Positions 2 to 17,067 of a DNA stretch of 64,000 bases are shown one piece after another. Where the stretch lies: positions 1 through 64,000 of the forward strand of contig CAMCVV010000007.1 of assembly GCA_945881905.1 (NCBI GenBank), written 5' to 3'. The position numbers and the translations under genes were made by a program. Numbering within the stretch: position 1 is the stretch's first letter; each line of letters opens with the position of its first letter. Source of the stretch: Paenibacillus alvei (lineage in GTDB: Bacteria > Bacillota > Bacilli > Paenibacillales > NBRC-103111). The notes below the pieces were generated by a model that saw nothing but the letters and a program-made list of their open reading frames with translations, was not told the DNA's origin and made no database searches.

Positions 2-541
2 CCAGATAATCAGCGAGTATTTGAAGAAGATCGATACTTCAACTTACGGATTCTCCTGGTTGCGGATCAGTTATGTTTTATCGCCAAACCCATGTATCAC
101 TATATCCAGAGGCCAGGATCACTGATGCATTCATATGTACCTCATCATATCCGTCGACAATTGAACCTGATCGAAGATATACATGACGAGATCCAAAACC
201 CAACAAGGAGAGATGTTTTTAAGAAAGTACTCTCACTTTATATAGTAGATACGATCAGCAAGGAAACACGACACAATATCCAGTACAACAGAGGATGCCG
301 AGAGCTGTATGCGTCCATTCGGATGGTAGAGAAGAACATAAATGTAATAAAGTATATAGATTTTACATTGAAGAATACAGCTTTTGTATTCAATCTAGGT
401 CGTAATCATAATTTATATGGATTGATCGTTAGTTATTTACTGAAATATCACCTAACGCTAGGCCATGTGGGTTTTTTGTATGCGAAGTATGCATTTCATG
501 AATTCAAAACATCAGTCAGATCGCTGATGTATAACAAATAG
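2..541 (+). CDS. GT2-family glycosyltransferase, C-terminal part (5' end outside window)
   Basis: The reading frame is open from base 2 to the stop at 541, so the gene begins upstream of the window. The first residues (DNQRVFEEDRYFN) align with the acidic ED motif region of the two complete GT2 enzymes at 8526-9629 and 17068-18156 (DNRRVFAEDRYFN in the latter), and the rest matches their C-terminal helical tail. Family knowledge: such enzymes add one sugar from a nucleotide sugar to a growing glycan at the cytoplasmic face. The catalytic DXD half is missing here only because of the window edge. It lies 35 bp upstream of the first sulfotransferase on the same strand, so it probably belongs to the same polysaccharide operon. 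Acceptor and donor unknown. Confidence 0.85.
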   Translation, partial: PDNQRVFEEDRYFNLRILLVADQLCFIAKPMYHYIQRPGSLMHSYVPHHIRRQLNLIEDIHDEIQNPTRRDVFKKVLSLYIVDTISKETRHNIQYNRGCRELYASIRMVEKNINVIKYIDFTLKNTAFVFNLGRNHNLYGLIVSYLLKYHLTLGHVGFLYAKYAFHEFKTSVRSLMYNK

Positions 542-576: not shown

Positions 577-1407
577 ATGTTAAGTCACAATGATTATGTC
601 ATAAAAAAGAAAAAATGGGCAAAATTCATGATACGACAACTAACAGCTTCGCTTCGCCCACACCCTTCATTCATGATTATTGGCGCACAAAAAGGTGGAA
701 CGACTTCACTCTATTGTTATCTTCAACAAAATCCTCGAATCGGAAGTAATTTACGTAAAGAAGTCGGATATTTCAGTGAGCATTATGAGAACAATGAAAG
801 ATGGTATCGAGCTCATTTTGCATTATCGATTCTCCCTCAACAACGATTATCTTTCGATGCTACACCTGAATATCTGTCTCATCCTCTCGTTCCCTCGAGA
901 GTTAAAGCGAAGTATCCGCATATGAAATTCATCTTATTGTTAAGAAATCCTGTGGAAAGAGCTTATTCGGGCTATCAACATGTGGTGAAGCGGGGAAAAG
1001 AAGATCGTACTTTTGAAGAAATGATTACGAGATTATACCGGCTAGAGAAATTATCACCTGCTCAGCAAAATGAGTCAGTCCAATGGCTTCCTGAAAAGGG
1101 ATACCACAATGTCTTGGCTAGAGGGAAGTATGTAGACCAACTCACCAGATGGTTCCAGTATTTCCCTAGAGAGCAATTCCTGATCATGCAAAGTGAGTAT
1201 TTCTATGCCCAAACAACCGATGCTATGAAACAGATCAGTGCATTCTTGGAAGTGCCCTATTGGGAAACCACAGAGCTTAAAGTTCGGAATGCTGGAGGCA
1301 GTTACCCAGAAATGGATCCGCACACTAGACAACAACTTGTAGAGTACTTCAAGCCATATAACACGAGGTTGTACCAGTTATTAGGAAAAAACTATGGATG
1401 GGAATGA
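577..1407 (+). CDS. PAPS-dependent sulfotransferase (heparan-sulfate-sulfotransferase-like), copy 1
   Basis: A 276-residue Sulfotransfer_1-type protein. Visible PAPS-binding signatures are the 5'-phosphosulfate loop GAQKGGTTSL at residues 36-45 and the 3'-phosphate site LRNPVERAYSGY at 122-133; between them lies DATPEYL (94-100), common in heparan-sulfate-type sulfotransferases. There is no signal peptide or membrane segment, so it probably acts in the cytoplasm on a nucleotide- or lipid-linked glycan. An AAAGGAG site ends 9 bp before the ATG at 577; another ATG at 573 is out of frame. It is followed at once by a TuaH-like glycosyltransferase and has a paralogue at 2638-3447 with very similar C-terminal DNA. 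Transfer to a sugar hydroxyl of the locus glycan is inferred from context; the exact acceptor cannot be read from sequence. Confidence 0.88.
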   Translation: MLSHNDYVIKKKKWAKFMIRQLTASLRPHPSFMIIGAQKGGTTSLYCYLQQNPRIGSNLRKEVGYFSEHYENNERWYRAHFALSILPQQRLSFDATPEYLSHPLVPSRVKAKYPHMKFILLLRNPVERAYSGYQHVVKRGKEDRTFEEMITRLYRLEKLSPAQQNESVQWLPEKGYHNVLARGKYVDQLTRWFQYFPREQFLIMQSEYFYAQTTDAMKQISAFLEVPYWETTELKVRNAGGSYPEMDPHTRQQLVEYFKPYNTRLYQLLGKNYGWE

Positions 1408-1423
1408 TGCGTAGGTGAAGAAT

Positions 1424-2581
1424 ATGAATACAGTCGATCATTACATAGTATCGGGTCCTCTATATAAGAATATCAAGTATAGAAGAGGGCATTTGGTAGA
1501 TTATCTAAAAGAACTAGAAAACACTTCTCACGTGTATTGGATTATACCGAGTAAAGAACCTCAATTAAAACGAATGGCCCATCAATCATCGATATCTATG
1601 GAGCGAATCGACGATAAGCTCACGTATATCCATGTCAGAACGACATCGGATGTCTTCCTCTATACTGAGCTCATGTCTTCGCATTTATATAATAACTTAC
1701 AAGAACAAATCACATCAAACCCCAACAAAAAAATACTGTGGTATACAAGACCACAATATCCATTTTTGAGTAAAATGAAAGCATGGGATTCCGTCGTCTA
1801 TGACTGTAGTGATTTATGGGTTGAAATCATATATCATCGAAAAGTACTACGCAAATCACTAATGACGTACGTGATGACTCGAGCTGAACAGAAAATCGTG
1901 AAGCGAAGCACCGATTTGTTCAGTACAACACCCTACTTATCTGAGCATATCTACTCATTTTCCGGGAAGAAGCCCTATGTGATCGAGAATGGTGTATCGC
2001 AACACATGCTCGAAGAACCTTCTTCAGACACAGATCCGTTCCCCCATATTCCCAAACCCAGAATAGGATATGTAGGCACGGTGAGGCGGTTGGTAGATAT
2101 CCAGTTATTACATGATGTAGCGATCAAGTATCCCACCATGAGTCTTGTGTTCATTGGTCCAGTGACCCTTAAATCGATAGAGTGGAAGAAGTTGAGTCAA
2201 GAAGCGAACGTATTTGTGGTAGATCAAATACCGATTACTGATGTTCCTAGATATATGAGAGCATTAGACGTCGGATTATTGCCGTATCGACCTACTGCAT
2301 TATCTCAAGCCACCAGTCCTCTGAAATTCTTTGAATATGTCGCTTGCGGGATTCCTGTAGTGGGAAGTGGATTGCCCACGATTGAGAAATATCGTGAAGC
2401 AGGTGTATATGATTATGCGAATGGATCATCCGAACAGTTTGCTGAGAAATGTATAGAGGCGCTCGAATATGCAAGGGATGTTCGTATGCAAGAACGCAGA
2501 AGAAACTTAGCGAAGACGCAATTATGGCACAATAAGTTTACTGTAATGGTAGATAAAGTGATGAATCGTCATCTTCCATAG
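1424..2581 (+). CDS. TuaH-like GT4/GT1-type glycosyltransferase, copy 1
   Basis: Two-Rossmann (GT-B) glycosyltransferase of about 385 residues. Seen: an N-terminal domain with YRRGHL and WIIPSK, a central VVYDCSDLWV segment and ENGVS, and a C-terminal nucleotide-sugar domain with PRIGYVGTV, a DVGLLPYRP stretch and SPLKFFEYVACGIPVVG, which carries the EX7E-type element. The layout resembles TuaH of the Bacillus teichuronic acid pathway. I place the start at ATG 1424, with AGGTGA 6 bp upstream, rather than the in-frame GTG at 1415; this also matches the paralogue N-terminus (MDHYIV). It starts 16 bp after the sulfotransferase stop and is probably translated with it. Sugar donor unknown; a uronic acid or glucose donor is possible because ugd and galU are in the same locus. 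Confidence 0.82.
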   Translation: MNTVDHYIVSGPLYKNIKYRRGHLVDYLKELENTSHVYWIIPSKEPQLKRMAHQSSISMERIDDKLTYIHVRTTSDVFLYTELMSSHLYNNLQEQITSNPNKKILWYTRPQYPFLSKMKAWDSVVYDCSDLWVEIIYHRKVLRKSLMTYVMTRAEQKIVKRSTDLFSTTPYLSEHIYSFSGKKPYVIENGVSQHMLEEPSSDTDPFPHIPKPRIGYVGTVRRLVDIQLLHDVAIKYPTMSLVFIGPVTLKSIEWKKLSQEANVFVVDQIPITDVPRYMRALDVGLLPYRPTALSQATSPLKFFEYVACGIPVVGSGLPTIEKYREAGVYDYANGSSEQFAEKCIEALEYARDVRMQERRRNLAKTQLWHNKFTVMVDKVMNRHLP

Positions 2582-2637
2582 AGTATGCGTAGAACGATTG
2601 AGCATGAAGAAGTGAATAAGAATCAGGGAGTGAGCTT

Positions 2638-3447
2638 ATGGGACCCATCATACGGAAGATTAGATTCCAAATAAAGATATGGACTTCAGCGTTACGAGAA
2701 GATCCTTCCTTCATGGTGATTGGCACGCAAAAAGGTGGAACGACATCACTTTGGAATTATCTCTGTCAGAACCCTCGAGTCGGAAGAGCACTCAAGAAAG
2801 AAATTAATTATTATAATGAGCACTATGCCAAAAAAGAAAAGTGGTATAAAGCACATTTCCCTCTAAAAGGTAAAGCTGAAAACCTGCTCTATTTTGATGA
2901 TACACCTGAATATATGACACATCCTAGTGTTCCACAAAGAATTCATAAATCTTACCCCGATATGAAGTTCATTGTATTATTAAGAAATCCAGTGGATAGA
3001 GCCTACTCTCATTACCAACATAGATGTAGGCGTCAAAATGAGAATCGCACATTTGAAGCAGCACTATCCGAATTGTATGCTAACATCGATGCATCTACAG
3101 AGATGCAAGATGTATTCGATAACCGTTATGTTTATTCCATGTATTACAATTATCTGGCTCGAGGACATTATGCAGAACAACTCACCAGGTGGTTCCAGTA
3201 TTTCCCTAGAGAGCAATTCCTGATTATACAGAGTGAGGATTTCTACGCACATACCCAAGAGAAGATGAAAGAGATCTGTGATTTTGTAGGTATAACTCAT
3301 TGGGAAAACACCACATATGAAATTCGTAATTCTGGAAGGGTTTTCCTAGAAATTGATCCGCACACCAGACAACAACTCGTCGCGTACTTCAAACCCCATA
3401 ACGAAAAGTTGTACCAGTTACTAGGAACGAACTATGGATGGGAATGA
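2638..3447 (+). CDS. PAPS-dependent sulfotransferase (heparan-sulfate-sulfotransferase-like), copy 2
   Basis: A 269-residue paralogue of the 577-1407 protein. The PAPS 5'-phosphosulfate loop GTQKGGTTSL is at residues 29-38, and LRNPVDRAYSHY lies near residues 113-124 with DDTPEYM before it. Both loops are intact, so both copies are expected to be active. The last third (FPREQFLI, then DPHTRQQLV and the NYGWE terminus) is nearly the same as copy 1, while the middle is divergent, which suggests the same fold with a different acceptor. Start ATG 2638 is preceded by GGGAG 7 bp upstream. It follows the first TuaH-like gene by 56 bp and is followed by the second, so the order sulfotransferase-glycosyltransferase occurs twice. 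No membrane segment seen. Confidence 0.88.
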   Translation: MGPIIRKIRFQIKIWTSALREDPSFMVIGTQKGGTTSLWNYLCQNPRVGRALKKEINYYNEHYAKKEKWYKAHFPLKGKAENLLYFDDTPEYMTHPSVPQRIHKSYPDMKFIVLLRNPVDRAYSHYQHRCRRQNENRTFEAALSELYANIDASTEMQDVFDNRYVYSMYYNYLARGHYAEQLTRWFQYFPREQFLIIQSEDFYAHTQEKMKEICDFVGITHWENTTYEIRNSGRVFLEIDPHTRQQLVAYFKPHNEKLYQLLGTNYGWE

Positions 3448-3549
3448 CAGCTGCATCTCACATTCGACGAATGATCGCTTACACAGGCTGAATGAACATC
3501 TCTAATCACCTAGAGCATTACGAATAAGTAACAGGAATTGGAGGAAATG

Positions 3550-4710
3550 ATGGATCATTATATCGTTGCACCATATCAATACGATGAAACTATATTTCGA
3601 AGACACCGACTTGCAGCATATATCTTGGAACAAGATACAGATGCAAGGATATTCTGGATTATGCCAAAACCATCTTCTGTGCGTAGAATTGTGGCTTCTT
3701 CAAGTATTCAAATCGAACAAATGGAGCCCAAAGTTTACAGAATTCATGTATATAATGTGTGGAATTTATTTAATTTTGGAGGCATCCTCAGTCGTTTGGC
3801 AACAAGAGGTTTAAGGCATCATATCCAAAAAAATAATAATCCAAAAGTGCTATGGTACACACATCCTTCATATCCCGAGTTAAGTTCGATAGAACGATGG
3901 CATTCAACGATCTATGATTGCAGTGATTTATGGTCTCAAGCACCAAAACAAGAAACTACATGGGCGGATAAAGCTAGGATTAAGTTATCCATGTTTCGGT
4001 TAAAGAAATCTGAAATTCGAATTACGAAGCAATGTAAACACATTATGTGCACCTCAGATTATTTAGCTGTTCGACTACAATCGTTAACGGGAAGAAAACC
4101 TGTCATCATTGAAAATGGTGTGGATTCAGATTTCTTCAATACATCTGAGCAAGTTCCAGATCCATTTCAACATATAGCCCACCCTCGAATCGGTTTCATT
4201 GGAGGGATCAAACTTAAAATTGATTTTGATCTATTAATACATATGGCAATCACATGCCCCCAAATCAATATCGTGCTTGTGGGATTGATTCCACCTAACA
4301 TCAAAAGATTACCTGAAATCGAAAAACTAAGAAAATTGGTTAACGTATATTTTTTTGATTTCGTGAGTTTATCCGAAGTTCCGAGATACATGAAATCGTT
4401 GGATGTTGGACTATTACCTTATAAGCCGATTACATACAATCAAGCAGTAAGCCCTTTGAAATTGTTCGAATACCTTGCCGTTGGAATTCCAGTTGTAGGT
4501 TGCGGTGTACCGAGTACATCGAAGTATCAAGCAGAAGGCGTATATTATTATGCGAATCACGCTCATGATGATTTCATTGAGAAATGTCAACTAGCAATTC
4601 AGGAGTCAAGTGATCTCAAGTTACAAGCACGTAGAATAGAACTTGCTCGGCAGCACATATGGACCCAAAAGTTCGAAGAGATTCTTCAAATATCATTACA
4701 TTCTTCATAA
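3550..4710 (+). CDS. TuaH-like GT4/GT1-type glycosyltransferase, copy 2
   Basis: Paralogue of the 1424-2581 enzyme with the same landmarks in order: MDHYIV at the N-terminus, FRRHRLAAYIL, WIMPKP, TIYDCSDLW, ENGVDSDFF, PRIGFIGGI, DVGLLPYKP, and SPLKLFEYLAVGIPVVG near the donor site. The longest open frame begins with TTG 3538, but a GGAGG ends 5 bp before ATG 3550 and the paralogue begins at the equivalent residue, so 3550 is chosen. A 102-bp gap separates it from the second sulfotransferase, and the next gene starts 17 bp after its stop. The likely role is cytoplasmic addition of one sugar in the same glycan repeat unit; donor unknown. Confidence 0.82.
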   Translation: MDHYIVAPYQYDETIFRRHRLAAYILEQDTDARIFWIMPKPSSVRRIVASSSIQIEQMEPKVYRIHVYNVWNLFNFGGILSRLATRGLRHHIQKNNNPKVLWYTHPSYPELSSIERWHSTIYDCSDLWSQAPKQETTWADKARIKLSMFRLKKSEIRITKQCKHIMCTSDYLAVRLQSLTGRKPVIIENGVDSDFFNTSEQVPDPFQHIAHPRIGFIGGIKLKIDFDLLIHMAITCPQINIVLVGLIPPNIKRLPEIEKLRKLVNVYFFDFVSLSEVPRYMKSLDVGLLPYKPITYNQAVSPLKLFEYLAVGIPVVGCGVPSTSKYQAEGVYYYANHAHDDFIEKCQLAIQESSDLKLQARRIELARQHIWTQKFEEILQISLHSS

Positions 4711-4727
4711 GAAAGGATCGTGTTCAA

Positions 4728-5837
4728 ATGAATATTGACGCGTTACTTATTCAAAGTGCAGAAAAGATGATATCTCTCCAATCAGCAACAGGTTATTTCC
4801 CGAAAGGATCCAATGGACCTTGGCTAGATGATGACACCTATGTAAGAACAACAGCACATGGCGCGATGCTCATCTATCATGCCTATGAATTAACGGGTGA
4901 AACGAAGTATTTAGAGGGTGCGTTACTTGCTTGTGAGTATCTAATCAGTACTGAAGCGATGCAATATGGCTATGCGTTTCACTGCAGGAACACGGAAACA
5001 TCAGATCGATGTAATGGTTTGATTGGTCAAGCTTGGGCTATTGAACCTCTCATTTGGATTGGTTACAATGAGGATATACATAAGTATACGGATGTGGCTC
5101 AGAACCTGTTAGCAATACTGCCCTATCATTATGATCAACACGTATGGGATATGTTGGAAATCGATGGAAGAAACATAGGGACAAGAGTTGCACTGAACCA
5201 ACAAATATGGATTTCTGCGATGTCTCTTATATTAGGACAATGGATACATGATCAGGAATTAATTCGTAGAGGTGCTGATTTTTTTGAGCATATCAACGAA
5301 AAAGTCCAGTATATTGCGCACAAAGGATTAATTCAACATACATTTCGCAAAAAGAAACAAATCCGTTCAACACGTAGTTGGAAGGATATCTGGGAACCGC
5401 TTCTTGAACCTGAAATCAATAAAACGGATAACGTTGCCCTCCATGAAAGGTCAGATGGTTATCTATCTTTCTTGTTATATGGCATGGCACTGGCTTATTC
5501 TCACTCTGCTGAGGCGCGTTTCTGGAAAAGTAGAAAAACGAAAAAATGGTTGGCTGCAGCAGTCAACTATGTATGCAACAACATCACCCAACGATATCCG
5601 CAAAGTGAAGGCTATGCTTGGTGCTACAATCCGACAGGAATCGAACTCGCCTATGTGGTTCAGACGTTTCAATCTTATCTTCGTTTATCAGACCATCTTC
5701 CTCACGTAAGTACATGGATCGATATGCAAATCAACGCGTATTATGACTTCACACAGCATATGATGAGCCATAACACCAAATACCCAGAGATTCTCTCTGC
5801 TCGCTTGTATGAAGCGATTAGACTTAAGCATCCATAA
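4728..5837 (+). CDS. Helical (alpha/alpha) barrel protein, putative glycan-modifying enzyme of unknown activity
   Basis: About 369 residues, soluble, no signal peptide. I do not recognise a named family with certainty. Seen are repeated helix-pair-like segments rich in Trp, Tyr and His (for example HGAMLIYHAYELTGE, GLIGQAWAIEPLIWIGY, RVALNQQIWISAMSLI, NPTGIELAYVVQTF), the look of (alpha/alpha)6 toroid proteins such as unsaturated glucuronyl hydrolases, heparinase-like lyases and C5-epimerase C-terminal domains. The start is ATG 4728, with GAAAGGA upstream; an earlier in-frame ATG at 4659 would overlap the previous gene by 52 bp. It sits between glycosyltransferase and acyltransferase genes in the sulfation locus, so a role in editing or trimming the glycan is an inference from fold appearance and context only. 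Confidence 0.6.
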   Translation: MNIDALLIQSAEKMISLQSATGYFPKGSNGPWLDDDTYVRTTAHGAMLIYHAYELTGETKYLEGALLACEYLISTEAMQYGYAFHCRNTETSDRCNGLIGQAWAIEPLIWIGYNEDIHKYTDVAQNLLAILPYHYDQHVWDMLEIDGRNIGTRVALNQQIWISAMSLILGQWIHDQELIRRGADFFEHINEKVQYIAHKGLIQHTFRKKKQIRSTRSWKDIWEPLLEPEINKTDNVALHERSDGYLSFLLYGMALAYSHSAEARFWKSRKTKKWLAAAVNYVCNNITQRYPQSEGYAWCYNPTGIELAYVVQTFQSYLRLSDHLPHVSTWIDMQINAYYDFTQHMMSHNTKYPEILSARLYEAIRLKHP

Positions 5838-5887
5838 CATAGAGTTGCTTCATTCATATCATCATTAATTTCATTAGGAGACATGAC

Positions 5888-7288
5888 GTGTTATTTAATT
5901 CATTTGAGTTTATTTTTATTTTTCTGCCAGTCGTGTTCACTGTGTATTTTCTCCTTAATCAGAGAAAACTCCTGGTGATTTCCAAGTATTGGTTAGTTGC
6001 GAGTTCTTTATTCTTCTATGGGTGGTGGAATATCGCTTACTTGCCACTGATGCTGATGTCTATCTTTGTCAATTATGGGGTAGGTAACTTATTCAATCGA
6101 TTGACATCACCAACACATCGATGGCAAGCGCTCACTGTAGGACTTCTCTTCAATTTCGGATTACTGGGTTATTTCAAGTATGCGGATTTCTTCATTATGA
6201 ATACGAACCGCATCTTCCCGACGGACATCCCACTCTTGCAGCTTTTGCTACCGCTTGCCATTAGCTTCTTTACCTTTCAACAGGTCGCTTATTTGATCGA
6301 TGCTTACAGAAGGGAAATACATCACAACACATTTCTCGATTACGTCTTATTTGTAGCTTTCTTCCCACAATTAATTGCAGGTCCCATCGTCAATCATCAC
6401 GAAATGATGCCTCAGTTCGCTCGGATGAGACAGAAAGTATTGAATTATCGCCACATCGCTTTGGGTATGTTCATCTTTTCGATCGGTTTATTCAAGAAAG
6501 TGGCGATTGCAGATACATTTGCTGTCTGGGCGAACGAGGGATATCAGCAGACACAAGCGCTGAGCTTCTTGGAAGGGTGGATCGTATCTTTGTCGTATAC
6601 GTTTCAGTTGTATTTTGATTTCAGTGGATACACAGACATGGCTATTGGTGTAGCACTCTTGTTCAATATTCAGTTGCCGAGGAATTTCAACTCGCCTTAT
6701 CAAGCACTCAATATCACAGACTTCTGGCGTAGATGGCATATGACCCTTACACGGTTCCTAACGAAATACATCTATATTCCACTCGGAGGTAATCAACAGG
6801 GAACGCTGAGAACGTATTTGAATATATTCTTCGTATTCGTGATTAGTGGATTTTGGCACGGAGCTGGATGGACATTTGTCTTCTGGGGAATTCTCCACGG
6901 GCTTGCAACACTCATTCATCGATATTGGCAGACGCTCCATATTCACATGAATCGTTACGTGGCATGGTTCATTACATTTAACTTTGTGAATATCACGTGG
7001 GTGTTTTTTCGAGCACAGACGTGGTCTGAAGCGTGGCATATTCTTAGAGCGATGAGTGGACTGAATGGAATAGGTTTCGCTCAAATCACGATGGGGAATT
7101 TGGAGTTCATTCAATCTCTTTCATACATCTTGATTGGCTTGGTACTGGTATTAGGATTCAAAAACTCAACCGAACGGATGCGAGGATTTAAACCAACGCT
7201 ATGGACGATGTTGATATCTGTGGGTTTGACTTTTTATGCGATCACACACTTCAATCAAGTCAGCGATTTCCTGTATTTCAATTTCTGA
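5888..7288 (+). CDS. MBOAT-family O-acyltransferase (AlgI/DltB-like)
   Basis: A 466-residue polytopic membrane protein with the AlgI-type N-terminus MLFNSFEFIFIFLP and many hydrophobic helices. The two conserved MBOAT histidines are present: His284 in DFWRRWHMTLTRF and His324 in SGFWHGAGW. Known family role: it moves an acyl, usually acetyl, group across the membrane onto a polysaccharide or teichoic acid together with an SGNH partner, which is the very next gene. GTG 5888 is preceded by AGGAG 7 bp upstream. Together with the sulfotransferases it implies that the glycan is decorated twice, with sulfate (probably inside the cell) and acyl groups (outside). Confidence 0.93.
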   Translation: MLFNSFEFIFIFLPVVFTVYFLLNQRKLLVISKYWLVASSLFFYGWWNIAYLPLMLMSIFVNYGVGNLFNRLTSPTHRWQALTVGLLFNFGLLGYFKYADFFIMNTNRIFPTDIPLLQLLLPLAISFFTFQQVAYLIDAYRREIHHNTFLDYVLFVAFFPQLIAGPIVNHHEMMPQFARMRQKVLNYRHIALGMFIFSIGLFKKVAIADTFAVWANEGYQQTQALSFLEGWIVSLSYTFQLYFDFSGYTDMAIGVALLFNIQLPRNFNSPYQALNITDFWRRWHMTLTRFLTKYIYIPLGGNQQGTLRTYLNIFFVFVISGFWHGAGWTFVFWGILHGLATLIHRYWQTLHIHMNRYVAWFITFNFVNITWVFFRAQTWSEAWHILRAMSGLNGIGFAQITMGNLEFIQSLSYILIGLVLVLGFKNSTERMRGFKPTLWTMLISVGLTFYAITHFNQVSDFLYFNF

Positions 7289-7326
7289 GTGATCGTCATT
7301 TAGTAGAGTCTAGGAGTGATGTTTCC

Positions 7327-8352
7327 ATGAGAACGTATAAACAATGGGTGCTCAGAACCCTATTGGTGTTGGTAGGGGCTATAATCAGTTTTGTAGGATT
7401 CAACGTGTTCATCGATCCACTGTGGGTGTTCGGTCACGCGCATGCATGGAATGATGTACAGAACAATTATGATGAACGATTAACAAAAACAAATCGCATC
7501 ACCTATCAGCCATTTGATTATGATCGGATATTACTAGGAAATAGTCGAGTAAATATGATCAACCAGAATGATTTCAAACGACTTCGTGTATATAATTATG
7601 CGGTTCCTGGTCTAGAAATCGATGAGATACATGATATGATAGAATATGCCAAAAAGCAAAGAGGTCAAGAGTTCCAGACGATTCTCATCGGATTAGATAT
7701 AGCTCAAACCAACACGAGGGAACCTTCTGAAAGGATAACATCCTATTTCGAAAATCATGAAGACCCTTTTCACATCGTGAAGATGTTGTTATCCATGGAT
7801 ACATTCGAGCATGCAGCAGGAAATTTCCGGGCATCCATCAAGAATTCACATGATTTTCTCAGAAATTATAATCGAGAGAATATAGCGACAGTGAAGAAGC
7901 AGACTGCTGCGGAAACCGAAACAGGTATAAATGTAATCATCAACAAATACCAAAAATCGTTCAGCAATAAAAGGTATACCTACAACGAAGCATATAAAGA
8001 AACCTTAGAACAATGGAAACAAGATAACCCGAACACACAATTCATCATATTCACGACCCCGTTACCTACGGTTACCTTGCAAGCGATATGGGCACAAGGA
8101 CGAGTTGCAGATTATAACAGGTGGTTATCAGAATTAGTTGATGTATTCGGTGAAGTGGTTCATTTCGAGAATGACAATTCGATAACCAGGAATCATTCGA
8201 ATTTCTATGATGGAGGCCACTATTATGAACATATCGGTACGATGATCGCGCATAGGATTATGGATGTTCCAGATCCTACTGTTCCGGATGATTTTGGGAT
8301 CCTCCTTACACAAGATAATCTTGCATCTTATCTAGCGTCAATCGTTCCCTAG
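7327..8352 (+). CDS. Membrane-anchored SGNH-type acyltransferase partner (AlgX/AlgJ/DltD-like)
   Basis: About 341 residues with one N-terminal membrane anchor (residues about 8-28) and an extracytoplasmic SGNH-hydrolase-like domain. The serine block LLGNSRVNM places the likely nucleophile at Ser73, and the C-terminal DGGHYYEH gives the Asp-x-x-His pair (Asp295, His298). ATG 7327 is chosen, with TAGGAG about 9 bp upstream; a longer frame from 7201 would overlap the MBOAT gene out of frame. Its position 38 bp after the MBOAT gene fits the usual two-part acetylation module, in which the MBOAT protein supplies acyl groups and the SGNH protein transfers them to the sugar. A related alternative is a de-acetylase. 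Confidence 0.78.
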   Translation: MRTYKQWVLRTLLVLVGAIISFVGFNVFIDPLWVFGHAHAWNDVQNNYDERLTKTNRITYQPFDYDRILLGNSRVNMINQNDFKRLRVYNYAVPGLEIDEIHDMIEYAKKQRGQEFQTILIGLDIAQTNTREPSERITSYFENHEDPFHIVKMLLSMDTFEHAAGNFRASIKNSHDFLRNYNRENIATVKKQTAAETETGINVIINKYQKSFSNKRYTYNEAYKETLEQWKQDNPNTQFIIFTTPLPTVTLQAIWAQGRVADYNRWLSELVDVFGEVVHFENDNSITRNHSNFYDGGHYYEHIGTMIAHRIMDVPDPTVPDDFGILLTQDNLASYLASIVP

Positions 8353-8525
8353 TCAATCTAAGCAGACCCTTTACATACAGGTATATGCAAGCAAACCAAC
8401 AACAGAAGACATCGATTATGGTTGGGAATAACGGGTTTCACTTGCTCTGTGCAGGTAAGTTTAGTTTATTACATAGACCGTTCATGTATTGAAGTCGAAT
8501 CACTATATCAGAAGGAGGTGTGCCT

Positions 8526-9629
8526 TTGCCAAAAGTATCCGTCATTATTCCAGTCTATCAGGCATCAGCATTCCTAGAGAAATGCTTGAACTCAGTAATC
8601 CATCAAACCCTGCTGGATATCGAAATCATCATCATCAACGATGGATCACCAGATCCTATGGATGAAGTCATCGCAAGTAGATACACGTCAGACCCAAGAG
8701 TTACCTATCTTCAACATGAGAATAGAGGGCAAGGGGAAACCAGAAATCGAGGCATCGAACTCGCAACAGGAGAATATCTAGCGTTTGTGGATAGCGATGA
8801 CTATATGGAACTCGACATGCTAGATCAGATGTACCAGAACGCAGTGAAGTATCAAGCAGATATCGTGTGCTGTGAAACATATTCATTCAAGAATGAAAAT
8901 TCAAAGAATATAAGAATTAAGTTCAATGACTCCACACTCGTATCGATTGAAAGGGATGGAGTTGCGTATTTTCTAAAACATTATTACTTCAATGGAATGT
9001 ACTCAATGCCTCCATGGGACAAAATATACAAAACTGAGCTCGTGAAAGAACACAATGTCAAATTCGGTGATAATCGACGGGTGGTGGGGGAGGATGTGTA
9101 TTTCCATACCTGCATCTTACAATTCGCAGATCGGATCTATTTCATGAATGAACCGTTATACGCTAGATTTGTTCGACTTGATTCGGATTTTCATTCGTAT
9201 CAAGCTGAATACATACAAAAACGATTAAACTTGATCACAGATGTCCACATACATATCCAACGCTCACCTAGAAAACATATATTCAATCAAGTCGTTGCTA
9301 TGATTTACGAATCAACCATTAATCGAATAAAGCGAAATGTGTTCACCTACAACCGAAGCTTTCATGAACTTCTTTCTAGCTTTAGAATATTGGGTAAGCA
9401 CCATTTGTCAAAAGAATATATCGATCTCATATTGACCGAAAGAATTTACGAATTACTACCGAAAGCACGGAGAAATCGATTCAAACATTCGGTGTATCTA
9501 TTGAAATTTCACTTATATCTGCTTTTATCGATTCGATGGTTTGTTGAATTCAAGTATCTGCCTATGATCAGGAAAATAAAGCCCAGACGATATTTACGTC
9601 ATCTGATTAAATCCATAAAACGTCTTTGA
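8526..9629 (+). CDS. GT2-family glycosyltransferase
   Basis: About 367 residues. An N-terminal GT-A domain shows VSVIIPVY, NDGSPD, NRGIELATGEY and the metal-binding FVDSDDY; the base-like ED motif is GEDVYFHTC. The C-terminal third is a basic helical tail shared with the GT2 genes at 2-541 and 17068-18156. I prefer TTG 8526 because AGGAGG (8513-8518) is 7 bp upstream of it, whereas the GTG at 8520 touches the ribosome site. It lies 173 bp after the acyltransferase partner, with no feature recognised in that gap. Likely a cytoplasmic single-sugar transferase in the repeat unit; donor unknown. Confidence 0.88.
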   Translation: MPKVSVIIPVYQASAFLEKCLNSVIHQTLLDIEIIIINDGSPDPMDEVIASRYTSDPRVTYLQHENRGQGETRNRGIELATGEYLAFVDSDDYMELDMLDQMYQNAVKYQADIVCCETYSFKNENSKNIRIKFNDSTLVSIERDGVAYFLKHYYFNGMYSMPPWDKIYKTELVKEHNVKFGDNRRVVGEDVYFHTCILQFADRIYFMNEPLYARFVRLDSDFHSYQAEYIQKRLNLITDVHIHIQRSPRKHIFNQVVAMIYESTINRIKRNVFTYNRSFHELLSSFRILGKHHLSKEYIDLILTERIYELLPKARRNRFKHSVYLLKFHLYLLLSIRWFVEFKYLPMIRKIKPRRYLRHLIKSIKRL

Positions 9630-9693
9630 TAGCAGATGTTCGAAGTGTGAGGGCTTGCTCGGCTCTTAAGCAGAAAAGGAGAAGTGATGATTT

Positions 9694-10293
9694 ATGAAGA
9701 AATATGTGAAGATTGTTATTACAACCCTCGTTGTTTCATTGGTATTGTTAGGTATTTCAGGATATCTGGCTATTAATTGGATCGCGGAATATGCTCTGTC
9801 GCAATTAGCGGGAGCTCCTACTCTTGCGGAGACTAAGAACAAGAATGACAGCTCGGGGAATGCGAACACAGATCGCACATCACCACAGTCGAGTGAGAAT
9901 GAGCAACAAGAGCTATCAACAACTGAAGAAAATGGACAACAAAGCTCGAATAATGAAGCGAATACTCAAACAGATGAGCAGCGCGCTTCATCCGAGGATA
10001 CCTACGATCCTAGAATTTCACCTAAAAAAATAGAACAAGCGAAGGAAACACTGAGCTTCGGTGAGAAAGCCAAAATTACGAGTGTCTTGCTTAGTAAATT
10101 AAGTGCATCGGAAATGAATCTTTTTGTGAAAATGGCTACCGATGGAGTTTCTCGGGAGGAAAAGAAAGAAGCAAAGAAAATCATTTTACTTAAGTTGACT
10201 GAACAAGAATATGATGAACTCATCGTTCTAGCGAAAAAGTTAGGATTAAGTCAAGGGCAGTCATATCAAGACTCATTAAAGAATATGAAGTAG
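9694..10293 (+). CDS. Membrane-anchored protein of unknown function with low-complexity linker
   Basis: A 199-residue protein, not assigned to a named family. Residues about 5-28 form one membrane segment, residues about 45-105 form an extracytoplasmic linker rich in Asn, Gln, Ser, Thr and Glu, and residues about 110-195 form a charged helical domain with repeated patterns of the kind SKLSASEM, SREEKKEAKKI and LTEQEYDEL. An AAAGGAG lies upstream; an ATG at 9687 is nearer but out of frame with the protein. The position between a glycosyltransferase and the sulfate transporter suggests a part in glycan assembly or surface sensing, but nothing in the sequence proves this. I recall similar single-pass proteins near polysaccharide genes in related bacteria, with limited confidence. 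Confidence 0.75.
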   Translation: MKKYVKIVITTLVVSLVLLGISGYLAINWIAEYALSQLAGAPTLAETKNKNDSSGNANTDRTSPQSSENEQQELSTTEENGQQSSNNEANTQTDEQRASSEDTYDPRISPKKIEQAKETLSFGEKAKITSVLLSKLSASEMNLFVKMATDGVSREEKKEAKKIILLKLTEQEYDELIVLAKKLGLSQGQSYQDSLKNMK

Positions 10294-10327
10294 TAACCAT
10301 ATGAGAAAGCTTGGAGGTTCATCTTAG

Positions 10328-12100
10328 ATGACGCTAGAAATCATGGCCATTCTTGTTATCCTCAGCGGGATGATGTATTGTCTCGTTCGTGAAATCGGTC
10401 GACCGGAATTGGTGATGTTCTTCACAGTAGCCTTATGCATCTTATCAGGGATCTTGACACCTGCTGAAGCGTTGAAGGGCTTTTCCAATGAAGGCATGAT
10501 GACGATAGCGCTTCTATTTATCGTCGGGGGGATTATCCAACAAAGCGGTATACTCACTTCCTTTGTGGATGTGGTCTTAGGAAAAGCACGATCACCTCGT
10601 ATAGCGATGTTGAGAATGATGATACCTGTGTCGTTGTTGTCAGCATTCATGAATAACACCCCCATCGTGGTGATGTTCATGGCATATATACGCGAATGGT
10701 GTGAGAAGCATCATATTTCACCATCGAAATTCCTCATTCCGTTATCGTATGCATCGATATTCGGTGGTATGGTGACATTGATCGGGACATCTACGAACTT
10801 GATTATCCATGGGTTGATGCTTGACCGAGGCATGCCCGGATTAAGTATGTTTCAACTCGCCATCGTCGGAATTCCAGGGGCATCTCTAGCGACGATCTAT
10901 ATGGTCACGCTAGGCTATCGATTATTACCGAATCATGCCATCGCACCGACTCATCCGACTCATGCCAAGGAATATCTCACGGAAGCTTGTGTAGATAACA
11001 ACGCACCGATCATTGGCCAAACCATACAAGAAGTCGGTCTCCGTAATCTCAAAGGGTTGTACTTGATCGAAATTATTCGTCAAGGCGAAACGATCAGCCC
11101 GGTAACGCCCAAGGACAAATTATGTGCAGGCGACCGATTGATTTTTACAGGAGTTGTGTCAACTATTGTCGAATTAAATCAAATCAAAGGTTTGGATATC
11201 GAGACGAATTCACAACTTAATCTTGAAGATCTCAAGAGAGGAAATGCAAGATTAATCGAAGCAGTGATCTCACACCAATCGAGTTTGCTTAGTCAAACCG
11301 TTAAACAAACGAATTTTCGCAGCAAGTATGATGCAGCTGTTGTCGCAGTTCATCGTCATGGGGAACGACTGGAGAATAAAATTGGGGATATTCAACTGAA
11401 AACAGGAGATACATTACTCTTGTTAGTCGGGACACAATTCGCGAATCGCTTTGCTTCGCAACGCAATGACTTCTATCTGACGACACCTGTCGCGGATATG
11501 ACTTTCAAAGCTTCGTGGAAACCCAAGTTCGCGATAAGTCTACTCGTGGTGATGATTGTGCTCGCTGCGTTCAATATTCTTTCGATGTTCCAAGCAGCTT
11601 TATTGGTGGTTAGTTTACTAATCGTAACTCAAACCGTTACAGCGAACGAAGCAAAGAATTATATGCAATTCAATGTGTTACTGCTGATCGCTTCTTCTTT
11701 TGGGATTGGCGCTGCGCTTGAGAAGACAGGAACTGCATCATGGATAGCTCAAACCCTGACTGAACTCCCATTCATCCATCATCTCATCGGTTATTTACTC
11801 GTGATGTACATCTTAACCAATCTCTTAACAGAATTCATGAGCAATAGCGCCACAGCTGTGATGATGTTTCCCATTGCCATCGAGACGGCAAACCAGTTAT
11901 CCGTGGATCCGATGGGTTTCATAGTGGTCATCACGATAGCCGCTTCTGCAGGATTTGCTACACCAATTGGATACCAGACCAATCTATTGGTCTATGGGCT
12001 CGGTAGGTACCGATTTGCGGACTACATGAAAGTCGGGATTCCGTTGAACGTGATCTATATGATTTTATCGATTCTTATTATTAACTACTGGTATTATTGA
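10328..12100 (+). CDS. SLC13/DASS-type sodium-sulfate symporter with two TrkA-C domains
   Basis: A 590-residue transporter. The N-terminal transmembrane half has the substrate/sodium hairpin motif NNTP followed by IGTSTNL; two cytoplasmic TrkA-C (RCK_C) domains lie around residues 215-385; the C-terminal membrane half repeats the hairpin as [10 protein letters not shown] and ends with the [13 protein letters not shown] loop. This order is that of SAC1/SLT-type sulfate permeases, as opposed to plain dicarboxylate carriers, which lack the TrkA-C insert. ATG 10328 follows GGAGG by about 10 bp. It is directly followed by cysC and cysQ, so sulfate is the best-supported substrate. No sulfite or sulfide reduction gene lies nearby, which points to supply of PAPS for sulfation rather than cysteine synthesis. 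Confidence 0.85.
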
Positions 12101-12131
12101 TCACATTCATTCATCTATAGGAGGAAATCAC

Positions 12132-12734
12132 ATGAACATCAAATCCGAAAACATCGTATGGCATGAAGCTAAAGTCAATCAAACAGATCGTCATCGCTTA
12201 AATAATCATCGAAGCAGTGTGTTATGGTTTACAGGGCTATCCGGTGCAGGGAAATCGACCTTATCTGTTGCACTTGAGAAGCTCCTCTTCGACTTCCAGA
12301 TTCGTTCATATGTCTTAGATGGAGATAACATTCGTCATGGTCTGAATCGCAACCTCGGCTTTTCACCCGAAGATCGCAAAGAAAATATTCGCCGTATTGG
12401 TGAAGTGTCCAAGTTATTCGTCGATGCGGGACTATTCGCACTGACTGCATTCATCTCTCCTTATCGTGAAGATCGAGATATGGTTAGAGCACTATTCGAA
12501 CCTCATGAGTTTATTGAAATCTATGTCAAATGCAGTATTGATGAATGTGAGAAGCGAGACCCCAAAGGTCTGTACCAAAAAGCACGCACAGGAGAAATAG
12601 CGAATTTCACTGGAATCTCTGCACCTTACGAAGAACCGATACATGCAGAACTGACCATCGAGACCGATAAGCAATCGATCGAGCAATCGGCTGAACAGGT
12701 AATGGCTTACTTGAAACACCATCACTATATATAA
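12132..12734 (+). CDS. cysC: Adenylyl-sulfate kinase (APS kinase)
   Basis: A 200-residue cytoplasmic kinase. The P-loop GLSGAGKST is at residues 35-43, the APS-binding [10 protein letters not shown] lies near residue 64, the family element [10 protein letters not shown] follows at mid-protein, and [13 protein letters not shown] forms the lid region. Reaction: APS + ATP gives PAPS + ADP. PAPS is the sulfate donor needed by the two sulfotransferases upstream. AGGAGG lies about 6 bp before the ATG. It stands 31 bp after the sulfate transporter and 55 bp before cysQ. ATP sulfurylase, which makes APS, is not fused to it and not in this window. Confidence 0.96.
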
Positions 12735-12789
12735 CAACTCTTGATTACGAGATTCACCATACTCAAACCGAATGAGGAGACGAAGACGA

Positions 12790-13614
12790 ATGACAATCCA
12801 GCGCCCAAACTCTATAGTGAATCATGAACATGCGCTAAAGCATATCGAACAGCTTATTCAAATCGCTAGAGATGCAGGCCATGCGATTCTGGGCATCTAT
12901 GATACAGAATATGTTATAGTGAACAAGGAAGATCATTCACCATTGACAGATGCTGACCGAGCGTCACATGAAGTCATTATGCAGGGGTTGCGTGAGCTCG
13001 ATCCAACGATACCGGTGATGTCAGAAGAAGGCTCACATACATCATATGAAGAGCGACAAGATTGGCGTATATTTTGGTTAGTCGATCCACTCGATGGAAC
13101 CAAAGAATTCATTAAGAAGAATGGAGAATTCACAGTAAATCTTGCGCTCATCGAAGGAAATTATCCCATATTCGGACTGATTCATGTGCCAGTTACGGGA
13201 ATGACATATGTCGGCACGCCTTCAGGAGCTTATCTGTTAGACTCGAACAATCAACGTACAGACATTCATGTAACTGCACCTCGTGATCACGAGATCACCA
13301 TTGTCGAAAGTCGCTCACATCCATCACCTGAAGGTGAGTTGTGGATGGCCTCATTACAACGCTCATACGCTACCATTCATCGTATTGAGAAGGGAAGCTC
13401 ATTGAAATTGTGTGCAGTTGCCGATGGTTCGGCACACGTCTATCCTCGTCTAGGTCCTACGATGGAGTGGGATATCGCAGCAGGTCAAGCAATCATTGAA
13501 GCCGCAGGTGGACAAGTCGTCGATCTGCAGGGGCAGAGATTCGCGTATAACAAAGAGAATTTATTGAACGGACACTTCATCGCATGTGGAAACTTAGATC
13601 TAAACCAAGTATGA
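12790..13614 (+). CDS. cysQ: 3'(2'),5'-bisphosphate nucleotidase (PAP phosphatase)
   Basis: About 274 residues, inositol-monophosphatase superfamily. Metal- and substrate-binding motifs are seen in order: SPLTDADRASHE, SEEG, VDPLDGTKEFI, and near the C-terminus TMEWDIAAGQAI. Reaction: 3'-phosphoadenosine 5'-phosphate to AMP and phosphate. PAP is the inhibitory by-product of every PAPS-dependent sulfotransfer, so its place beside cysC and in the same operon as two sulfotransferases supports a full sulfation cycle. I choose ATG 12790 because a GAGGAGA site ends 9 bp upstream; the earlier in-frame ATG 12772 lies within that ribosome site and would add an odd RRRRR start. Confidence 0.93.
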   Translation: MTIQRPNSIVNHEHALKHIEQLIQIARDAGHAILGIYDTEYVIVNKEDHSPLTDADRASHEVIMQGLRELDPTIPVMSEEGSHTSYEERQDWRIFWLVDPLDGTKEFIKKNGEFTVNLALIEGNYPIFGLIHVPVTGMTYVGTPSGAYLLDSNNQRTDIHVTAPRDHEITIVESRSHPSPEGELWMASLQRSYATIHRIEKGSSLKLCAVADGSAHVYPRLGPTMEWDIAAGQAIIEAAGGQVVDLQGQRFAYNKENLLNGHFIACGNLDLNQV

Positions 13615-13656
13615 TGAGTAGGATAAGGTAAGTAATTGAATATGAGGTGATTGGCA

Positions 13657-14676
13657 TTGAAGATCGTCGTCACAGGTGTAGCCGGGTTCATCGGTTATCA
13701 TGTCGCTCAGCGTCTGCTAGCAACAGGTCAATCCATCATAGGCATGGACAACTTGAATGATTATTATGACTTGAAATTGAAAGCAGATCGCTTGCTACGC
13801 TTACAAGCCTATGCACAATTCACGTTTTACGAGATGGATCTGTCACATGATGATGCATTAGCAGATATGTTCCGTCGTCATGAAATTACACATGTCATTC
13901 ACCTTGCTGCACAAGCTGGTGTGAGATATAGTCTAGAGAATCCGCGTGCGTACATCGACTCCAATGTATTCGGCTTTATGAATATCTTAGAAGTTTGTCG
14001 TCATCAACACGTTGAGCACTTGATCTATGCTTCATCGAGTTCCGTGTACGGTGCGAATGTTAAGTTGCCGTTCTCTGTCCATGATGCAGTCGACCATCCA
14101 GTCAGTCTATATGCAGCGACGAAGAAAAGCAATGAACTGATGGCACACACATATAGTCATTTGTTTCAGATTCCTACAACAGGGTTGCGTTTCTTCACTG
14201 TCTACGGTCCATGGGGACGACCTGATATGGCGTATTATTCGTTCACTCAACGTATCTATGCAGGCGAGAAGATACAGGTATATAATCACGGAGAGATGAG
14301 TCGAGACTTCACTTATATCGATGATATCGTCGAAGGCGTGGTGAGGCTCTTACCTAAACCTCCACAGCCACAGCTCGATTGGGATCGTGTTAATCCAGAT
14401 CCAGGGTCTAGCTTTGCACCATACCGGATATATAACATTGGTAATCACCAACCTGTGAATTTGATGACATTCATCCATACCCTTGAGAAACACATCGGTA
14501 AACAAGCGATTATCGAATTCATGCCGATGCAACCTGGAGATGTCGAAGCGACATTTGCCGATATCGAGGCATTGACTGAAGCAGTAGGCTTCCAACCGAC
14601 AACTTCACTCGATGAAGGGCTTAAGCAATTCGTTGCGTGGTATCGCGATTACCATGATTCAATTCTAGAAATATAG
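13657..14676 (+). CDS. NAD-dependent UDP-glucuronate epimerase-type protein
   Basis: Extended short-chain dehydrogenase, about 339 residues. The N-terminal NAD loop is TGVAGFIG, the catalytic tyrosine/lysine is in SLYAATKKSNELMAHT, and the signature TGLRFFTVYGPWGRPDMA, followed by GEMSRDFTYIDD, is typical of UDP-glucuronate 4-epimerases (WbpP/LspL-like capsule enzymes). Expected reaction: UDP-GlcA to UDP-GalA, using the product of the next gene (ugd). A GAGGTGA site ends 6 bp before TTG 13657, which I prefer over TTG 13651. With ugd and galU it forms a nucleotide-sugar supply set for a uronic-acid-containing glycan. A 5-epimerase or other C-position specificity cannot be excluded. Confidence 0.88.
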   Translation: MKIVVTGVAGFIGYHVAQRLLATGQSIIGMDNLNDYYDLKLKADRLLRLQAYAQFTFYEMDLSHDDALADMFRRHEITHVIHLAAQAGVRYSLENPRAYIDSNVFGFMNILEVCRHQHVEHLIYASSSSVYGANVKLPFSVHDAVDHPVSLYAATKKSNELMAHTYSHLFQIPTTGLRFFTVYGPWGRPDMAYYSFTQRIYAGEKIQVYNHGEMSRDFTYIDDIVEGVVRLLPKPPQPQLDWDRVNPDPGSSFAPYRIYNIGNHQPVNLMTFIHTLEKHIGKQAIIEFMPMQPGDVEATFADIEALTEAVGFQPTTSLDEGLKQFVAWYRDYHDSILEI

Positions 14677-14753
14677 GACCATTCATGATAAAGTGAAATG
14701 TATGAAATCATATTGGGGACCTTCATTCATCTCAGCAAGGAGAGAAACGCTTC

Positions 14754-16133
14754 ATGAGAAAAATTTGCGTAATCGGTACAGGTTATGTGGGACTGGTTTC
14801 TGGAACATGCTTTGCTGAAATCGGAAATCATGTGATATGCTGTGACATTGATCCTGTGAAAATTCAAAAGCTTTCACTTGGAGAAATTCCTATCTATGAG
14901 CCTGGTTTGTCTGCATGGGTACACAAAAACATGAAAGAACAGCGTCTGTCCTTCACGACGAATATAGCTCAAGCTATAGAAGCTTCAGATATCATCTATA
15001 TTGCAGTAGGTACACCGATGGCAACCAATGGCGAAGCGAATCTCACGTATGTTGAGCAAGTAGCGAAATCGATAGGCCTATATGCGCATGGGTACAAAAT
15101 CGTGGTGAACAAAAGCACAGTTCCTGTTGGTACAGCCAAATGGGTGAAGTCAATCATACACTTGCATCAAGTCGATGTAGAAGCTCAATTCGATGTTGTT
15201 TCGAATCCTGAATTTCTGCGCGAAGGGTCAGCGATTGCTGACTTTATGCAGATGGACCGAGCTGTGATTGGTGCAGACAATCCTCATGCTGCACAAGTGA
15301 TAGCAGAGCTTCATGCTCCACTCAACACTTCCATATTCATCACGGATACCGAAAGTGCAGAAATGATCAAATATGCGGCCAATGGATTTCTGGCTACGAA
15401 AATCTCATTTATTAATGCCATCGCGAATATCTGTGAGCGAGTTGGAGCCGATGTCGAACAAGTCGCCAAAGGCATGGGGCTCGACAGCCGTATTGGCTAC
15501 AAGTTCCTGCAAGCAGGGATTGGTTATGGCGGTTCATGCTTTCCCAAAGATACTTACGCGTTATTACATACTGCGAATTCATATGGCTATTCATTTGATT
15601 TAATGAGAAGTGTCATTGAGACCAATCAAGAACAACGGATGCTCGTCGTTCGCAAACTACAAGACATATTCGGAGATTTGACCGACCGCCATATCGCGAT
15701 ATTAGGACTTGCTTTCAAGCCCAACACCGACGACATGCGCGATGCACCTGCAGTAGATATCATTCCTGCCTTACATCGTTTAGGAGCACAGCTTCATGCG
15801 TATGACCCTATAGCGATTCATCATGCACAAGCGATCTTGGGCGATAAGACAACCTATCATACAGACATCTATGAGACCGTACTAGATTGCGATGCATGTG
15901 TGATTGTGACGGACTGGGAATCTGTGAAGAACATGGATCTCTCCTTACTTCGCACCAAGATGCAATCACCGATCATCATCGATGGAAGGAATTGCTTGCC
16001 TCGAGAGCAAATGAAGTCTTCAGGCTTCCTGTATCATTCGATTGGACAACCTGTGATTCATCTTCAAGGTATAGAACAAGTAGTGGCGTATCAGTCACAA
16101 CTGAAAGGAGTCCGTTCACAAGATGTCACCTAA
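14754..16133 (+). CDS. ugd: UDP-glucose 6-dehydrogenase
   Basis: A 459-residue enzyme with NAD loop [15 protein letters not shown] at the N-terminus, [20 protein letters not shown], and the active-site [10 protein letters not shown] with the catalytic Cys262; the C-terminal domain has [15 protein letters not shown]. Reaction: UDP-glucose + 2 NAD+ to UDP-glucuronate. It supplies the epimerase just upstream and presumably the glycosyltransferases. The stop overlaps the start of galU by 11 bp, so the two are translationally coupled. The orthologue in Bacillus teichuronic acid synthesis is TuaD, consistent with the two TuaH-like transferases of this locus. Confidence 0.96.
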
Positions 16134-17019
16134 TCCTCAAAAAGTACGCAAAGCGATCATTCCAGCAGCAGGACTCGGAACGAGATTCTTACCTGCAACC
16201 AAAGCACAACCCAAAGAAATGCTGCCTATTGTTGACAAACCCAGCATTCAATATATTGTAGAAGAAGCCATTGCATCAGGGATTGAAGATATCTTAATTA
16301 TCAGTGGCCGTGGTAAGCGAGCGATCGAAGACCATTTCGATAAATCATATGAACTTGAAGAAGTGCTATTGCACAAGAATAAATTAGACTTACTTAACGA
16401 AGTCCGTGCGATATCCGAACTCGCGAACATTCATTATATTCGGCAGAAAGAGCCACTTGGATTAGGACACGCGATATGGTGTGCTCGCTCATTTGTAGGG
16501 GACGAACCGTTTGCAGTTCTGCTTGGAGACGACATCGTTCACGCAGAGAAACCTTGCTTGAAGCAACTGATTGAAGTGTATGATCAGTTGCAATGTTCGA
16601 TTGTCGGCGTACAACGTGTATCGGATGAAGATGTCCCCAAATACGGGATTATTTCTCCCAAGCATGCCAATCAGACAACAGATGTGATGGAAGTGCAAGA
16701 TTTAGTTGAGAAACCAAGCATAGACCAAGCACCTTCGAATTATGCGATCATGGGGAGATATATTCTTACCCCACAAATTTTCACCATACTGGACAATCAA
16801 GCCCCAGGTTCAGGTGGAGAAATCCAGTTAACCGATGCCATCAGTCGACTCAATCTACAACAACAAGTCTTCGCTTATAACTTCCATGGGAAACGCTATG
16901 ACATTGGAGATAAAATCGGGTTTATTAAAGCGACGATCGATTTCGCTTTGATGCGAGATGATTTAAAAGATGAAATAATGGCCTATATTCGTCAAGTGCT
17001 TAACACTCGAACATCATAG
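16123..17019 (+). CDS. galU: UTP-glucose-1-phosphate uridylyltransferase
   Basis: A 298-residue nucleotidyltransferase. The nucleotide-binding start is [19 protein letters not shown] with [10 protein letters not shown], followed by [16 protein letters not shown] and GEIQLTDAI, all standard for GalU. Reaction: UTP + glucose-1-phosphate to UDP-glucose, the substrate of the ugd product encoded directly upstream. The ATG lies inside the end of ugd, with AAAGGAG before it. It closes the nucleotide-sugar part of the locus (galU-ugd-epimerase). Confidence 0.96.
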
Positions 17020-17067
17020 AGTTATTGAATTATTCGACCGTATTGCACATGGAAGTAGGTCAATCCG

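Follow-up and report, generated by a model that had tools for sequence, protein, structure and literature searches.

Two consecutive sulfotransferase and glycosyltransferase gene pairs, probably of ancient duplication, in a putative sulfated-polysaccharide locus of a Paenibacillaceae bacterium

Sulfated polysaccharides of bacteria are sparsely documented, the examples coming from cyanobacteria, marine proteobacteria and Kiritimatiellae, and a limited literature search found no gene cluster for one in Gram-positive bacteria. The synechan (xss) locus of Synechocystis 6803, which is responsible for a sulfated exopolysaccharide with about two sulfates per eight sugars, contains two sulfotransferases and eight glycosyltransferases (PMC8205485). 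For the sulfated capsule of Vibrio sp. KMM 8419, one cluster unites sulfotransferases and glycosyltransferases with the genes for synthesis of the sulfate donor 3'-phosphoadenosine 5'-phosphosulfate (PAPS); where PAPS synthesis genes and sulfotransferases occur together among polysaccharide genes, this has been proposed as a hallmark by which synthesis of a sulfated polysaccharide can be recognised (PMC11641403). The locus considered here lies at the left end of a stretch of Paenibacillus alvei DNA (assembly GCA_945881905.1, contig CAMCVV010000007.1), named the window, which comprises the first 64,000 of the 64,902 bases of its contig (C7) in a genome of 2.40 Mb that is 99.6% complete. Two consecutive pairs, each of a sulfotransferase (ST) followed by a glycosyltransferase (GT), are found there, and they probably descend from an anciently duplicated pair in a locus for a sulfated surface polysaccharide, itself likely to contain uronic acids. 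The four genes are the following:

ST1, 577 to 1407, plus strand: PAPS-dependent sulfotransferase of the heparan 3-O/N-sulfotransferase type, 276 amino acids (Pfam PF00685, 1e-16; profile matches to 3-OST and NST structures)
GT1, 1415 to 2581, plus strand: TuaH-like GT4-type glycosyltransferase, starting at GTG 1415 or ATG 1424 (Pfam Glyco_trans_1_4; NCBIfam TuaH, 258 bits)
ST2, 2638 to 3447, plus strand: second sulfotransferase, 269 amino acids (Pfam PF00685, 3.9e-21; supported by AlphaFold and Foldseek)
GT2, 3538 to 4710, plus strand: second TuaH-like glycosyltransferase, start listed at TTG 3538 (NCBIfam TuaH, 280 bits; 39% identical to GT1)

Like the synechan locus, the window has two sulfotransferases among its glycosyltransferases, but here the two are close paralogues. 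It shares with the Vibrio capsule locus the combination of PAPS genes, sulfotransferases and glycosyltransferases, whereas that locus is Gram-negative, uses Kps-type export and, in the part of its description covered here, comes with no mention of a tandem ST-GT pair (PMC11641403). Closer in taxonomy, since they also belong to the Bacilli, are the loci of Bacillus sp. JCM 19034 and Halalkalibacter (L037 and L032), in which sulfotransferases are interleaved with glycosyltransferase-like genes; they differ in the ST and GT subfamilies, and neither cysC nor a TuaH-like GT was seen in the stretch. These two loci of alkaliphilic bacteria (L037, 5703-12673, and L032) also carry rml-type sugar genes and possibly serve a sulfated spore or surface glycan.

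The order of sulfotransferase and TuaH-like transferase, repeated twice running, had been noticed in a preliminary description made from the letters of the window, and both coordinates and strand agree with it. ST1 and ST2 are 56% identical in amino acids over 261 residues without a gap (E 6e-111 in a single comparison), and their DNA repeats in register, the copies lying 2040 nt apart (76% over 300 nt). Their PF00685 (Sulfotransfer_1) scores, 61.5 and 76.1 bits, lie well above the gathering cut-off of 22. GT1 and GT2 can be aligned throughout, as had been claimed, with 39% identity over 377 residues. "TuaH-like" is an apt label for both, TuaH of the teichuronic acid operon of B. subtilis being their top NCBIfam match, yet their scores against the equivalog model NF047676 (258.1 and 280.2 bits) are about half of its cut-off of 550. 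The window GTs are only 28-36% identical to the Bacillus-type proteins and, unlike TuaH, occur in two copies, each beside a sulfotransferase. A UDP-glucose dehydrogenase gene nearby, as in the window, is seen in three of the TuaH-like loci fetched (L111, L112 and L117). For GT2, a start at ATG 3547 or 3550, behind GGAGG, is more likely than TTG 3538.

From the window alone, one would readily take ST1 and ST2 for sisters. A genome-wide search, however, brings the number of sulfotransferases in this family to three, and the third, which the preliminary description missed, changes that picture:

ST3, contig C6 of the same genome (G000:C6:7703-8734), minus strand: 58-59% identical to ST1, slightly above the identity of ST2 to ST1

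A scan of genome contigs with ST2 alone found no relatives, for which an alignment that included the Paenibacillus homologues was required. ST3 has no glycosyltransferase partner and lies directly behind a row of genes that we take, from their sequences, to be galK, galE and galT (L004, G000:C6:7703-12574). Its place right after galT hints at a galactose-containing acceptor.

In a tree of 45 rows, the three sulfotransferases form a clade specific to this genome (support 100/100), and the closest sequences outside it are about 44% identical. Separate horizontal transfers of ST1 and ST2 are ruled out by this clade, and the distant, separately acquired sulfotransferases that the preliminary description had named as the case against its reading were not seen in this sample. 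Within the trio, the same tree groups ST1 with ST3 (99/86), a smaller tree of 17 rows does not settle the branching order, and a constraint that joins ST1 with ST2 is not rejected by the approximately unbiased (AU) test (p 0.30 and 0.37 for two ST sets). GT1 and GT2 are sisters under both models (97/95 and 99/97), and joining GT2 to its nearest outside relative instead is rejected (AU p 0.024 and 0.013); their branches are long, and the sister relation is therefore only moderate evidence of a duplication. That relative is 41% identical to GT2 and belongs to another family of the same class (G234), and no ST was found in the 20 kb fetched around it (L110). Searches for the GTs in 399 class-level and 398 phylum-level genomes (at E 1e-40 / 1e-45) and for the STs in 395 order-level genomes gave no comparable ST-GT pair in the fetched loci, and no plasmid match was found for GT2.

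The two GTs use the same codon at 59 of their 141 identical residues (42%), which is the level expected by chance from local codon usage (0.39-0.42). Their silent sites are thus saturated, and the duplication is old. Of the tandem duplication that the preliminary description had proposed, the part concerning the GTs, which are sisters with the alternative rejected, and the common origin of the STs in this lineage are supported; a sister relation of ST1 and ST2 is compatible with the trees without being favoured by them. Because ST2 is no closer to ST1 than ST3 is, one clean duplication of an ST-GT pair is favoured but not proven.

The two sulfotransferases share more than their protein sequence in the last third of the genes. 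Long identical DNA around 1141-1190 and 3181-3230 had been flagged earlier, and it contains an exact run of 35 nt (P 0.03 relative to shuffled codons with the protein alignment preserved), while the divergence noted for the middle of the proteins reaches an identity minimum of 38% in amino acids at alignment columns 141-188. A tract with an excess of informative silent sites shared by ST1 and ST2 begins exactly at the flagged DNA:

Probable conversion tract, ST1 side, 1141 to 1377, plus strand: informative silent sites and the 35-nt exact run
Probable conversion tract, ST2 side, 3181 to 3417, plus strand: informative silent sites and the 35-nt exact run

Within it, 20 of 25 informative silent sites unite ST1 with ST2, compared with 11 of 37 elsewhere (permutation P 0.007, for a segment found by scanning). 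At residues common to the three STs, codon matches in the 5' two thirds are 35/65 for ST1-ST2, 35/65 for ST1-ST3 and 38/65 for ST2-ST3; in the last third they are 34/47, 18/47 and 16/47, and only the neighbours ST1 and ST2 exceed chance there. Gene conversion at the 3' end, which had been suggested before, thereby finds support at silent sites, and the pattern points to an old duplication that would have been followed by more recent conversion of the ST1 and ST2 3' ends.

Profile comparisons relate the STs to heparan sulfate 3-O-sulfotransferases and to the N-sulfotransferase domain. For ST2, the AlphaFold model (pLDDT 90.6) retrieves, with Foldseek, the bacterial protein 3rnl of Alicyclobacillus acidocaldarius (1.4e-15), 6xkg (3-OST-3; 1.3e-14) and NDST1 (1.7e-14). 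These PF00685 proteins have the same fold as the window STs, with a TM-score of 0.71-0.75 by query length, and they share the 5'-phosphosulfate-binding (5'-PSB) and 3'-phosphate-binding (3'-PB) motifs as well as the position of the catalytic Glu. Identity in the structural alignments is only 21-26%, and nothing points to a heparan-like acceptor. The 5'-PSB loop QKGGTTS, with its Lys, and the 3'-PB motif LLRNPxxRAYS are present in ST1, ST2 and ST3, the Arg and Ser of the latter being kept in 28 of 28 aligned homologues, and the position of the catalytic Glu is conserved in all three. The surroundings of this Glu differ. In the motif K-E-x-H-x-F-D, the His two positions after the Glu is found in 24 of the 28 homologues and in ST3, but it is Gly in ST1 and Asn in ST2, and the Asp is replaced by Ser in ST1 and by Asn in ST2 and ST3. 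In human 3-OST-3, Glu184 is the catalytic base, and the variants K162A, E184Q, H186F and D189N each retain less than 1% of the activity (PMC8341778). The changes at the His position and the divergent middle segment are consistent with altered acceptors of ST1 and ST2.

The nearest relatives of the STs in several Paenibacillus genomes are fused, through a linker, to the ATPase of an ATP-binding cassette (ABC) transporter (L009, 391-2250, and also L028, L029, L030 and L031). The ATPase is of the polysaccharide-export type, as read in L009, and most of the fusions lie beside cysC; they would combine export and sulfation in one protein.

The genes that surround the two pairs are all encoded on the plus strand:

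2 to 541, plus strand: C-terminal remainder of a family-2 glycosyltransferase truncated at the contig end (32% identical to the family-2 GT at 17068, its residues 182-351; no Pfam match)
4728 to 5837, plus strand: orphan protein of 369 amino acids, probably all-helical by a weak prediction, located in the same row after the ST-GT pairs and before the MBOAT gene
5888 to 8352, plus strand: MBOAT O-acyltransferase (5888-7288; Pfam MBOAT, 2e-32) and its apparent partner protein (7201-8352), putatively for polysaccharide O-acylation
10328 to 12100, plus strand: DASS/CitMHS-type transporter with TrkA_C domains (Pfam CitMHS, Na_sulph_symp, TrkA_C), a candidate sulfate importer
12132 to 12734, plus strand: CysC, adenosine 5'-phosphosulfate (APS) kinase, which makes PAPS (NCBIfam apsK, 2.6e-81, above cut-off)
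12772 to 13614, plus strand: CysQ, 3'(2'),5'-bisphosphate nucleotidase, which removes 3'-phosphoadenosine 5'-phosphate (PAP) (NCBIfam bisphos_cysQ, 8.5e-85, above cut-off)
13651 to 17019, plus strand: epimerase, Ugd-like and GalU-like proteins, putatively for the supply of UDP-uronic acids

The epimerase resembles UDP-glucuronate 4-epimerase (PDB 6zl6, 9e-49; 5u4q, 8e-139), and its two neighbours are presumably a UDP-glucose dehydrogenase-like protein (Ugd) and a GalU-like protein, as read from their sequences and from relatives in other loci. Two family-2 GTs, an ABC transporter and a CpsB-type phosphatase also follow downstream on the same strand. CysC, CysQ, the two STs and several GTs thus all lie within 577-18156, a grouping that has been proposed to mark sulfated-polysaccharide loci (PMC11641403). 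Elsewhere in the Paenibacillaceae, cysC also adjoins the closest relatives of these STs; a short distance between CysC and the ST gene is seen in P. plantiphilus, Paenibacillus sp. FJAT-26967, P. lutrae, P. chitinolyticus, Fontibacillus and two further genomes (G090 and G091). In a locus of another genome of the same family (L116), ST, cysC, the MBOAT gene with its partner and galU recur together, the two-gene MBOAT set adjoining cysC and a sulfotransferase there too; the same locus encodes one chain with two different sulfotransferase-like domains (9517-11589), beside cysC, MBOAT and galU.

For the orphan at 4728-5837, no Pfam family, PDB match or relative in the Bacilli was found, and its single-sequence model (pLDDT 41) is unusable; it was dropped as a recognisable enzyme, the model being too poor for a structure search. 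A promoter scan gave fewer matches than shuffled sequence, with a single terminator-like site on the plus strand (8440), and for this reason no operon boundary is drawn. Another contig of the genome (G000:C58:1971-13175, L126) carries a polysaccharide gene row that runs off the contig end in the same orientation, with Wzz/kinase-like, sugar-phosphate transferase, fucosyltransferase-like, Gmd-, Fcl- and ManC-like genes. This row may be part of the same locus, although it was discarded as the contig directly to the left of the window, as its end does not join the window start.

Judged from the sequences, this is probably a gene set for a sulfated surface polysaccharide, with unusual residues near the active site of the STs. 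The DASS-type transporter would import sulfate, a presumed ATP sulfurylase and CysC would make PAPS, CysQ would clear PAP, and Ugd and the epimerase would supply UDP-uronic acids. In the cytosol, the two TuaH-like GTs would transfer two of the sugars that make up the repeat or chain, and ST1 and ST2 would sulfate different groups on the glycan before its export; the copies would have diverged beside the catalytic base, while their 3' thirds were homogenised by gene conversion. Even for TuaH of B. subtilis, the donor is experimentally unproven (PMC6265299). The pairing suggested by the preliminary description, in which a GT and the ST beside it would handle one and the same sugar, is an attractive idea, and two sulfation sites per repeat are plausible, the roughly two sulfates per eight sugars of synechan making them credible by analogy only.

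Several points weigh against the proposed sulfated-polysaccharide locus with its duplicated pair. A CysH-type reductase is encoded elsewhere in the genome, so that CysC and CysQ could have a role in sulfate assimilation as well; a Wzx/Wzy pair was not found in the portion of the locus that was read. The segment with the conversion tract was picked by scanning, and a cruder scan over all nucleotide differences gives only P 0.095. With ST1 equally near to ST2 and ST3, the trees of the STs and GTs do not, even in combination, establish a single clean duplication of the pair. The pairs could instead have been assembled stepwise, the three STs arising by separate duplications and landing beside independently duplicated TuaH-like GTs, with one copy now in the gal row of C6. 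The grouping of ST1 with that copy, the absence of a GT next to ST3, and an identity between the STs that is far above that between the GTs (56% and 39%) all speak for such a course, which nevertheless appears doubtful: the same order and strand are repeated twice running, GT1 and GT2 are sisters, a clade of ST1 and ST2 is not rejected, and outside the conversion tract the three STs are equidistant at silent sites (35, 35 and 38 of 65). It is very unlikely that selection on codons or protein, and not gene conversion, accounts for the shared DNA of the ST 3' thirds. The C-terminal motifs are strongly conserved at the protein level, and in protein sequence ST1 is slightly closer to ST3 (70%) than to ST2 (66%) in this region, both points in favour of selection. 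ST3, however, keeps the same residues there with codons at the chance level (18 and 16 of 47, about 0.42 being expected), only the ST1-ST2 comparison is high, and the permutation result also speaks against selection alone.

The residue changes beside the catalytic base can be read in two ways, and the replacements of His and Asp could mean weak activity instead of a new acceptor. If ST1 and ST2 were redundant, or one of them weak or dead, a single sulfation site per repeat would result. The near loss of activity of human 3-OST-3 with H186F or D189N (PMC8341778) fits such a view, given the Gly or Asn for His and the Ser or Asn for Asp, and so does synechan, for which deletion of one of the two sulfotransferases (xssE) left bloom formation and accumulation of the exopolysaccharide substantially unchanged (PMC8205485). 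This outcome is considered unlikely: both reading frames are intact with their PAPS-binding motifs and the catalytic Glu, ST1 and ST2 differ on the acceptor side as different substrates would predict, and ST3 likewise has Asn at the Asp position. A more ambitious version of the proposal is put forward tentatively and, as one joint claim, is itself open to doubt. In it, ST1 and ST2 would each sulfate a new acceptor position, linked to the sugar that the neighbouring GT adds. Sugar and sulfate would then come from a modular cassette of Gram-positive bacteria, one that evolves through duplication and gene conversion of 3' ends and here gives a doubly sulfated, uronic-acid-rich polymer.

Should the proposed reading of a sulfated-polysaccharide locus be true, the locus, which would combine PAPS genes of its own with two heparan-type STs in divergence, could be drawn on for glycan sulfotransferases. 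It would also provide a natural test of whether the specificities of sulfotransferases and glycosyltransferases evolve as linked pairs.

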